DNA of 64,000 bases from Kushneria konosiri. Lineage in GTDB: Bacteria; Pseudomonadota; Gammaproteobacteria; Pseudomonadales; Halomonadaceae. Shown here in pieces: positions 60,532 to 62,325 of this stretch. Location: positions 496,001 through 560,000 of the forward strand of contig NZ_CP021323.1 in NCBI RefSeq assembly GCF_002155145.1, in the 5' to 3' direction. The position numbers and the translations under genes were made by a program. How positions within the stretch are numbered: position 1 is the first letter of the stretch; each line of letters opens with the position of its first letter. The notes beneath the pieces were generated by a model. It was given only the letters and a program-made list of their open reading frames with translations. It ran no database searches and was not told where the DNA came from.

Positions 60532-61626
60532 TTAAACCGACCGCTCGGTCAACCGCTTCGCCACACACCTAATGTGATGCTCGCTGTCCGTCCAGCCCAG
60601 ACAGCCATCGGTGACGGAAACGCCGTAGCGCAGTGCAGCGCCCATGGGCTGCTTGCCTGTTTCCAGATGGCTTTCGAGCATGACGCCGACCAGTGATGAC
60701 ACGCCATTGAGTCGTTGGCGGATGACCTCATCGAGCACCAGAGGCTGTCGAGTGGGGTCCTTGCCACTGTTGGCATGGGAACAGTCCACCATGATGGCGC
60801 CTGAAACGCCCGCTGCACCGAGAGCAAAAGCGGCCTTTTCAACGCTTTGCGCATCGTGATTGGGCCCTTGATGGCCACCGCGCAGCACCAGATGAGTGTC
60901 GGGATTGCCGCGTGAATGCAAAAGTGCCGGGTGACCGTTGTCATCAAACCCCGGATAACGATGGCCGTGGCGACTGGCGCCCATGGCATCGATGGCCACC
61001 TGAATGCCGCCGTCAGTACCGTTTTTGAACCCTGCAGGCATGGGCAGCGCACTGACCATTTCGCGATGAATCTGCGACTCGGTGGTCCGTGCCCCCACCG
61101 CCGCCCAGCTGATGAGATCATCCATGTAGGCACTCAACATGGGCTGAAGCAGCTCGCAGGCAATCGGCAGCCCCAGCGCCGCGATATCCCGCATGAGGCG
61201 GCGCGTACTGGCAAGCCCTTCGGCCATGTTGTCACTGCCATCCAGGTGCGGGTCATACACCAGCCCCTTCCAGCCGACAGTCGTTCTCGGCTTTTCCACG
61301 TAAACCCGCATGACCAGCACCATGCTGTCTGCCACCTCATTGGCGAGTTCTTTCAGACGCCGGGCATAATCCAGCGCGCTGTCGCGGTCATGAATGGAGC
61401 AGGGTCCCATGACAACCAGCAGGCGCGAATCATGGCCATTCAGGATATTGCGGATCGTCTGCCGCTGGTGGGCAATCTGCTCTTTTATGGCAGGTTCCAG
61501 GGCAATGGCCTTTTTGAGCGCGCCGGGTGTCGGCAGGGGCTGGGATACAATGGCGGCATCCGCGTCATCGGTCTGATCGAAGGAATCGGGGTGGGCAGCT
61601 TCAACAGCGTTGAGTAAGGCATTCAT
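60532..61626 (-). CDS. 3-deoxy-7-phosphoheptulonate (DAHP) synthase, class I
   Basis: First step of aromatic biosynthesis, condensing phosphoenolpyruvate with erythrose 4-phosphate. The 364-residue protein is of the AroF/AroG/AroH type. Landmarks are LVVMGPCSIHDRDSALDYA, RVYVEKPRTTVGWKGL with catalytic Arg/Lys, GARTTESQIHREMVSALPMPAGFKNGT and VMLESHLETGKQ. Which aromatic amino acid inhibits it cannot be read safely. It is preceded by a second small frame and by an attenuator with a Tyr/Trp/Phe-rich leader peptide, indicating control by aromatic amino acid supply. Confidence 0.95.
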   Translation of the reverse strand: MNALLNAVEAAHPDSFDQTDDADAAIVSQPLPTPGALKKAIALEPAIKEQIAHQRQTIRNILNGHDSRLLVVMGPCSIHDRDSALDYARRLKELANEVADSMVLVMRVYVEKPRTTVGWKGLVYDPHLDGSDNMAEGLASTRRLMRDIAALGLPIACELLQPMLSAYMDDLISWAAVGARTTESQIHREMVSALPMPAGFKNGTDGGIQVAIDAMGASRHGHRYPGFDDNGHPALLHSRGNPDTHLVLRGGHQGPNHDAQSVEKAAFALGAAGVSGAIMVDCSHANSGKDPTRQPLVLDEVIRQRLNGVSSLVGVMLESHLETGKQPMGAALRYGVSVTDGCLGWTDSEHHIRCVAKRLTERSV

Positions 61627-61643
61627 GACGAGATCTCTATCCT

Positions 61644-61772
61644 TTAACGGCGTAACAAGGGTAAGTGTGGAGCGCCCGTTACTGACACGCCGGCGGTCAG
61701 CGCTCGAAGCGCCGCCAGCGTGCGGTTAAATCGCCAGCCATACGCTGGATGGTTCTGGTCCGTCATGGTCAT
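61644..61772 (-). CDS. Small open reading frame between attenuator and DAHP synthase
   Basis: A 42-codon frame begins with ATG after GGGAGAATCAC, a good ribosome-binding site, and ends 17 bases before the DAHP synthase start. The N-terminal half contains Tyr, Trp and Phe (AYGWRF). The rest is Ala/Leu/Arg-rich and ends LLRR. It lies downstream of the attenuator terminator, so is only transcribed on read-through. It could be a coupling cistron or a second sensing peptide; no family is recognised. Confidence 0.45.
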   Translation of the reverse strand: MTMTDQNHPAYGWRFNRTLAALRALTAGVSVTGAPHLPLLRR

Positions 61773-61816: not shown

Positions 61817-61861
61817 ACAAAAACAAAAAACCCCGGTGGCGTGCTGCCGACCGGGGTTTTT
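61817..61861 (-). terminator. Attenuator terminator upstream of the DAHP synthase gene
   Basis: On the minus strand CCCCGGT (the complement of 61856-61850) pairs with ACCGGGG, extended by five A-U pairs, and runs into TTTTTTGTTTTTG. The loop holds GGCAGCAC and GCACGCC. These are complementary to two upstream segments (61869-61876 and 61887-61894), giving alternative pairings that would prevent the terminator from forming. Confidence 0.8.
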
Positions 61862-61886
61862 GAGGGTGGGCAGCACGGTAGATACC

Positions 61887-61912
61887 GGCACGCCCTGGTA
61901 TTCAGGCGTGCC
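61887..61912 (-). promoter_or_regulatory. Pause/antiterminator-control hairpin at the leader peptide stop
   Basis: GGCACGCC and GGCGTGCC (8 bp) pair around the leader stop codon. The downstream arm (61894-61887) can alternatively pair with GCACGCC in the terminator loop (61844-61838). A ribosome stalled on codons 34-38 would mask the upstream arm and favour the alternative. Confidence 0.65.
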
Positions 61913-62033
61913 CGTTCCTAAACCAATACCAGTAGCCCACTGAATAACCGACTGCGCCAGAGACACGCGCAGACACTGCCAAAGCCTTTTGGGCCAGCAG
62001 AGTCTGAGTGTCATTGGGCGCCAGATGCGACAT
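61902..62033 (-). CDS. Aromatic amino acid leader peptide of the DAHP synthase attenuator
   Basis: A 43-residue peptide too short for standard gene calling. It starts at ATG 62033 with CAGGA nine bases upstream and ends GYSVGYWYWFRNGHA. Codons 34-38 (61934-61920) are TAC TGG TAT TGG TTT, with another Tyr at 30. Its last two sense codons form part of a stem (61905-61912) that pairs with 61887-61894. This is the architecture of a ribosome-stalling attenuator responding to Tyr/Trp/Phe-tRNA charging. The coding assignment rests on the codon run, start signal and downstream hairpins. Confidence 0.8.
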   Translation of the reverse strand: MSHLAPNDTQTLLAQKALAVSARVSGAVGYSVGYWYWFRNGHA

Positions 62034-62117: not shown

Positions 62118-62243
62118 TCAGATGAGAAACTCCTTCCAGATAAACAGTGCCGGCAATGCCGCTGCCAGCGATATTACCACCACACCGGCCACCATACCGA
62201 CCAGCAATGCACGATCCTTTAGTAACGTCGACGGCGATATCAT
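62118..62243 (-). CDS. Small single-span membrane protein, unknown
   Basis: A 41-residue frame starting at ATG 62243 after AGGTGG. One hydrophobic helix (LLVGMVAGVVVISLAAALPALFI) is flanked by Lys/Asp/Arg on the N-side and WKEF on the C-side. The frame continues upstream to a TTG at 62318 with no good signal. It lies 82 bases after folM on the same strand and upstream of the DAHP synthase leader. No family is recognised. Confidence 0.42.
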   Translation of the reverse strand: MISPSTLLKDRALLVGMVAGVVVISLAAALPALFIWKEFLI

Positions 62244-62325
62244 GATGCCACCTGTCACGGTTGTTGAAACAACATTGTCTTGAACATCGTGGTTGTTGTC
62301 TGGCGAGTTGTTCGCCAATATCAGT

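Follow-up and report, generated by a model that had tools for sequence, protein, structure and literature searches.

Evidence for ribosome-mediated attenuation of DAHP synthase by an aromatic-codon leader, with a second leader-like reading frame, in Kushneria konosiri and its relatives

Introduction

DAHP synthase (3-deoxy-7-phosphoheptulonate synthase) governs the flow into the aromatic pathway, and the control known for its genes in E. coli is by repressors and by feedback inhibition. The nearest functional precedent for control by a leader peptide is AroR-aroF of Corynebacterium glutamicum, in which a leader with Phe-Tyr-Phe precedes the DAHP synthase gene and stalling is reported to raise transcription (PMC4046766; PMC11802643, citing Neshat et al. 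2014). AroR contains a Tyr codon yet is reported to be unresponsive to Tyr, responding to Phe (PMC11802643). The enterobacterial trp, pheA, his and ilvGMEDA attenuators combine a short ORF rich in the amino acids of the pathway with a leader hairpin, an antiterminator and a terminator with a U-tract, and leaders that read several amino acids, such as those of ilvGMEDA and thrL, are already known. DAHP synthase is not mentioned in a genome-wide attenuator survey (PMC2965389), and the literature that we searched yielded no paper on a leader of DAHP synthase in Pseudomonas or Halomonas.

The window analysed here is a 64,000-nucleotide stretch of the Kushneria konosiri genome (contig NZ_CP021323.1), and all positions given are those of the window. 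A sequence-only reading had proposed that it holds an attenuator of DAHP synthase with a Tyr-Trp-Tyr-Trp-Phe leader, and had set this against classical attenuators that sense one amino acid; leaders for several amino acids are not new, as ilvGMEDA, thrL and AroR show. Like AroR, the Kushneria locus has an aromatic-codon leader peptide in front of a DAHP synthase gene. However, AroR is actinobacterial and carries Phe-Tyr-Phe without Trp, whereas the Kushneria leader mixes Trp with Tyr and Phe, and a second leader-like ORF is not mentioned in the relevant passages on AroR (PMC4046766, PMC11802643); only the papers were compared. Relative to the enterobacterial attenuators, the Kushneria element meets their testable structural criteria but is located at the aromatic entry step, reads as a Tyr/Trp/Phe mix and has a second leader-like ORF behind it. 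The kind of system is known, AroR being the precedent for attenuation of DAHP synthase, and what is new is the presence of Trp with Tyr and Phe, the taxonomic range and the second leader.

Results

The presumed regulated gene encodes a class I DAHP synthase on the minus strand at 60532..61626 (NF009395, E 2.4e-147; TIGR00034, E 2.7e-129; PF00793), and the leader stretch, 62033..61817 on the same strand, is found ~190 bases upstream of its start codon. Leader ORF 1 (MSHLAPNDTQTLLAQKALAVSARVSGAVGYSVGYWYWFRNGHA; 61902..62033, minus) comprises 43 codons from the ATG at 62033 to the TGA at 61904-61902, with an SD-like AGGA at 62046-62043 (minus). The peptide ends GYWYWFRNGHA (C-terminal end ..GYSVGYWYWFRNGHA), and the putative regulatory codons TAC TGG TAT TGG TTT occupy 61934-61920 (minus). 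A translatable short ORF with a ribosome-binding site and clustered codons for amino acids of the pathway, as required of a ribosome-mediated attenuator, is present. The second DAHP synthase gene of the K. konosiri genome has no comparable aromatic leader.

A leader hairpin (segments 1:2; 61887..61912, minus) forms over the stop codon of ORF 1, pairing GGCACGCC (61912-61905) with GGCGTGCC (61894-61887) over 8 bp. Between the ORF and the structural gene lies an intrinsic terminator (61828..61859, minus) with arms AAACCCCGGT (61859-61850) and ACCGGGGTTT (61837-61828) and a U-tract at 61825..61830 (minus), which is interrupted in some relatives. The terminator loop, 61848-61840, is at the same time the 3' strand of an antiterminator whose 5' strand is CGTGCTGCC (61869..61877, minus), with an 8-bp helix between GTGCTGCC (61876-61869) and GGCAGCAC (61848-61841). 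Antiterminator and terminator exclude each other, the covarying helix using both the loop and the stem of the terminator. A 7-bp alternative helix joins GGCGTGC (61894-61888) to GCACGCC (61844-61838). The leader stretch folds better than 200 of 200 dinucleotide shuffles (z -4.9). A simple consensus terminator scan did not list the window's terminator because the loop exceeds the 3-8 bases which the scan permits. The sequence-only reading had described the 43-codon frame with its aromatic run, the 8-bp hairpin at the stop codon, the terminator with a U-run and two segments complementary to the terminator loop; all of these held, but only the 8-bp segment is backed beyond the genus. It had overlooked a second ORF, described below.

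Upstream regions of DAHP synthase, at most 900 bases long, were taken from 90 Halomonadaceae loci and from a further sample of named Pseudomonas, Stutzerimonas and Halopseudomonas and additional Halomonadaceae genomes. An aromatic leader ORF upstream of DAHP synthase was listed in 90/90 Halomonadaceae and 49/49 Pseudomonas-type loci. A strict automated test, demanding an aromatic ORF that holds Y, W and F plus a terminator, was met by 109 of 139 loci (60/90 Halomonadaceae, 49/49 Pseudomonas-type), by none of 139 reverse strands and by none of 417 shuffles; among loci L129-L139, mostly from other phyla, none of 11 had such a leader. Among the strict misses inspected by eye, the majority show a strong terminator hairpin whose U-tract is interrupted, for example GGGGGTTCTTGCG. 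A covariance model trained on the leaders of Halomonadaceae and Pseudomonas matched upstream of DAHP synthase at E 1e-5 or better in further families that had not been used in building it. There the leaders end FFWWFGYGFYFSQ.. (family f20), GWWFTYFKS (family f40) and FYFGYWFSRSRA; the f20 leaders and the f40 leader (WWFTYF) are separate runs, each with all three aromatic residues. Three matches weaker than ~1e-5 were examined (L241-L243), and none adjoined an aromatic leader and DAHP synthase.

The aromatic codons vary in number between relatives, but Tyr, Trp and Phe are all kept. The six closest relatives have GYWF in place of YWYWF, with leaders that end GYWFRDRHA; other Halomonadaceae endings include GYWYWFSAGVP, YGYWFSHGVP, FWSYWFSAGVP and FWYGYFMIGVP, and Pseudomonas-type endings include YFGYWFSHWRA and YFYGYWFSQ. 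The sequence-only reading had stated that it would be refuted if peptide or stems were not conserved in close relatives; both are conserved, and it was not refuted. The Phe codon that follows TGG is TTT in 108 of 109 leaders, whereas TTT makes up 12 of the 273 Phe codons of DAHP synthase genes, a bias that fits regulatory codons.

Terminator, antiterminator and leader hairpin covary across relatives. The antiterminator strands are GUGCUGCC:GGCAGCAC here and GGGUUGCC:GGCAACCC in most relatives, and the paired changes read CGUGCUGCC:GGCAGCACG in the window's genus, CGGGCUGCC:GGCAGCCCG in locus L019 and CGGGUUGCC:GGCAACCCG in most halomonads. The 8-bp helix is thereby kept with compensatory changes; for the 7-bp helix, supporting evidence is confined to the genus. 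In an alignment-free comparison of 117 loci, namely those with both a terminator and, 5' of it, a segment that can base-pair with the terminator loop, the antiterminator helix had a mean score of 19.3 vs 11.5 in shuffles. In a 43-sequence alignment, 94.2% of terminator and antiterminator cells were paired, with 35 doubly changed cells vs 8.9 in shuffles, and every slid control was much lower. The leader hairpin of the other halomonads was 98.5% paired with 20 doubly changed cells vs 6.9 in shuffles; its first arm falls in different alignment columns in the window's genus. As a caveat, the rows of the covariation alignment were picked from loci where the terminator had already been found.

When the nascent RNA was folded at equilibrium, the picture was mixed. 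In Pseudomonas the antiterminator rose from 0.17 in the free RNA to 0.63 once a ribosome was placed on the Phe codon. The states were not separated in the window copy (0.92 free, 0.91 stalled) or in halomonads overall (0.69 free, 0.64 stalled), so that for these copies the switching step is inferred, relying on analogy and on unmodelled kinetics.

None of the Rfam amino-acid operon leaders (Trp, Phe and others) gave a covariance-model match up to E 5. A check of the Rfam leader families, also suggested by the sequence-only reading, yielded only a weak relative of P15 (RF00627), an end-to-end alignment of 28.8 bits at 61830..61941 (minus). No other site in the K. konosiri genome matches P15 better, but the score falls below the gathering cut-off of 70 bits, which 17 named loci do meet. 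These 17 Pseudomonas-type hits (among L060-L120) all cover the end of ORF 1 and the terminator, and the window's element shares with them its position directly upstream of DAHP synthase. Rfam differs from our reading in typing P15 as an sRNA gene rather than a leader. We take Livny 2006 to be the probable source of P15; its position upstream of DAHP synthase was reportedly noted earlier, with function unknown. The simplest reading, and a likely one, is that P15 in Pseudomonas represents the leader transcript of DAHP synthase after termination.

Between the terminator and the gene we found a second leader-like reading frame, ORF 2 (MTMTDQNHPAYGWRFNRTLAALRALTAGVSVTGAPHLPLLRR; 61644..61772, minus), with a good ribosome-binding site (SD GGAG) and with Tyr, Trp and Phe codons. 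The window copy reads MTMTDQNHPAYGWRFN.., and relatives in Halomonadaceae and Pseudomonas read ..YYGYWRFSDARSVQ-ATSDR..LGG.. and MNTTYYRYYRNSDWRFS..; no Pfam or NCBIfam family was assigned to ORF 2. In halomonads its stop codon is within ~45 bases of the gene start or overlaps the start. At 61727..61736 (minus) lies the near-invariant TGGCGATTTA, which holds the Trp-Arg-Phe codons TGG-CGA-TTT-A (CGA in 120/121 and TTT in 120/121). In the aligned sets TTT is followed by A without exception, including cases in which the next codon specifies another amino acid, indicating a constraint on bases or codons beyond the peptide. A 12-mer of ORF 2, TGGCGATTTARC, occurs twice in the genome, the other copy being inside an unrelated gene that resembles an extracellular substrate-binding protein. 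A perfect complement of TGGCGATTTAGC, which might have marked an sRNA partner, was not found elsewhere in the genome. As a side observation on both leaders, TTT is almost always followed by A (TGGTTTA at 61925-61919, TGGCGATTTA at 61736-61727, both minus), and this A persists even where the next amino acid differs.

ORF 2 contains a hairpin, S1, with arms GCACGCTGGCGG (61712..61723, minus) and CCGCCGGCGTGT (61685..61696, minus), found by a per-sequence search and supported by covariation. In most loci, 12-18 bases separate TGG from the S1 hairpin that follows (score 20.0 vs 13.9). S1 was good in 111 loci, and in these the bases of its loop pair with a stretch immediately beyond the hairpin in the geometry of an H-type pseudoknot; this candidate helix S2 scored 17.1 vs 10.1 in shuffles and was above the null in 111/111. 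In the window the S2 arms found by the per-sequence search are GAGCGCT within the S1 loop (61699..61705, minus) and GGCGCTC (61670..61676, minus), and S2 competes with a local hairpin, GCGCUUCGAGCGC. H-type pseudoknots occur in mRNA leaders and at frameshift sites. The ORF 2 element shares their order (S1, L1, S2, L2, S1', L3, S2') and usual lengths (typically S1 7-12 bp, L1 6-9, S2 5-8 bp, L2 0-2, L3 5-11), but is set apart by its location within a leader ORF with Tyr, Trp and Phe codons that precedes DAHP synthase. In a 45-sequence alignment, S1 and S2 were 92.7% paired, 12 of 15 pairs were changed on both sides, and 62 cells were doubly changed vs 16.7; these rows were pre-filtered for a recognisable S2. 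RNAalifold on raw ORF 2 alignments gave nearly no covariation, because the helices are pseudoknotted and shifted between lineages; the per-sequence search recovered them.

The short Pseudomonas form of ORF 2 is without the pseudoknot. Salinicola-type loci (L025, L032, L141-L143, L154, L156, L157, L160) keep leader 1 and have no ORF 2, which shows that the two modules are separable. Rfam has no entry for the ORF 2 element. A model of it, run on a class-wide sample of 274 genomes, hit the two Halomonadaceae genomes once each and no other genome.

Discussion

Aromatic codons are conserved, terminator and antiterminator covary, and the element keeps a constant position upstream of DAHP synthase. 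On these grounds the stretch very likely acts as a ribosome-mediated attenuator of DAHP synthase transcription, responsive to the supply of aromatic aminoacyl-tRNAs, as the sequence-only reading had proposed; its amino-acid responses are inferred, there being no expression data. According to this model, a shortage of charged Tyr-, Trp- or Phe-tRNA would stall the leading ribosome on TAC TGG TAT TGG TTT, which would prevent the leader hairpin (61912-61887) from forming. GUGCUGCC (61876-61869) would then pair with GGCAGCAC in the later terminator loop, and RNA polymerase would read into the gene. With a good supply the ribosome would reach the stop codon, the antiterminator would be disfavoured, and the terminator (61859-61825) would stop transcription. 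The parts, their conservation and their covariation are shown; the stalling, its direction and the counting of all three amino acids are inferred.

The alternative that survives best is a leader that responds chiefly to a single aromatic amino acid, such as Trp or Phe through the TGG-TTT core, with the remaining codons as filler or structural elements. This remains possible. TGG and TTT are the only near-invariant codons, the Pseudomonas GGGTAT is also constrained by pairing with ATACCC in the P15 fold, and the Corynebacterium AroR responds to Phe but not to Tyr (PMC11802643). Against it, Tyr codons are retained in nearly every leader though their number and order vary, and the f20-family leader, FFWWFGYGFYFSQ, is a different run that again has all three aromatics. 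The claim of the sequence-only reading that all three aromatic end products are read remains inferred; the Tyr codon of AroR is reportedly without effect (PMC11802643).

Regarding ORF 2, it is likely that this frame with its conserved hairpin or pseudoknot adds a second aromatic-dependent step, although the readout is not established. Our best guess is that ribosomes would meet the structure while decoding Trp-CGA-TTT, with a pause that would depend on charged tRNA; such a pause would tune the gene after the terminator, in a direction that is unknown. One may also entertain a bolder reading, for and against which we see equal weight: two tandem aromatic-tRNA sensors on one DAHP synthase mRNA in Halomonadaceae and Pseudomonas, in which the Tyr/Trp-CGA-TTT codons of ORF 2 would stall the ribosome against the pseudoknot and act, past the terminator, on translation or elongation.

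It is unlikely that ORF 2 instead masks the DAHP synthase ribosome-binding site, in an ermC-like translational attenuation. The Trp-Arg-Phe stretch of 18 short-type Pseudomonas ORF 2s is able to pair immediately 5' of the gene start codon (mean -13.1 vs -9.3 kcal/mol), but no pairing is clearly above chance in halomonads, in the window's genus or in long-type Pseudomonas. Save for that one contact, masking was no better than in shuffles and was rejected.

We regard as very unlikely the view that the terminated 5' transcript is itself the product, a trans-acting sRNA in the sense of P15, with the ORF incidental. Rfam types the Pseudomonas counterpart as an sRNA gene, and a terminated leader would appear as a small RNA; against this, the aromatic codons of the ORF persist across families with differing RNA sequence, and the element is located upstream of DAHP synthase. 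Nor does it seem at all probable that the terminator is merely the 3' end of an upstream unit, with the gene served by its own promoter downstream. A small ORF (62318..62118) does lie upstream on the same strand, and a consensus scan recognised no sigma-70-like promoter either upstream of leader 1 or between terminator and gene, but this view leaves the aromatic ORF, the covarying antiterminator and the TTT codon bias unexplained. A frameshifting cassette in ORF 2 giving an N-terminally extended DAHP synthase has in its favour the distance of 12-18 nt from TGG to the hairpin or pseudoknot in most loci, which is the usual spacing behind a slippery site, and a gene mostly in another frame than ORF 2, but the fusion was tested, not supported and is very improbable, as only 18/131 loci keep the gene frame open upstream beyond the site, the -1 frame hits a stop at once in most loci and the site is not a standard slippery heptamer.

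If the preferred reading of leader 1 as an aromatic attenuator is correct, several Pseudomonadales families appear to sense the supply of charged aromatic tRNA directly at DAHP synthase. The unexplained Rfam sRNA P15 thereby gains a probable function, and its entry could be re-annotated as a leader. In engineering Pseudomonas or Halomonas for aromatic products, the leader would act as a hidden brake.

Two minor features were seen just upstream of leader 1. A perfect palindrome, ATGATCGATCAT, at 62097-62086 (minus), is almost retained in the closest relatives and could possibly be an operator. The small ORF at 62118-62318 (minus), directly upstream of leader 1, has one hydrophobic stretch (..LLVGMVAGVVVISLAAALPALFIWKEFLI), and several halomonads have comparable small membrane-like ORFs near this place.
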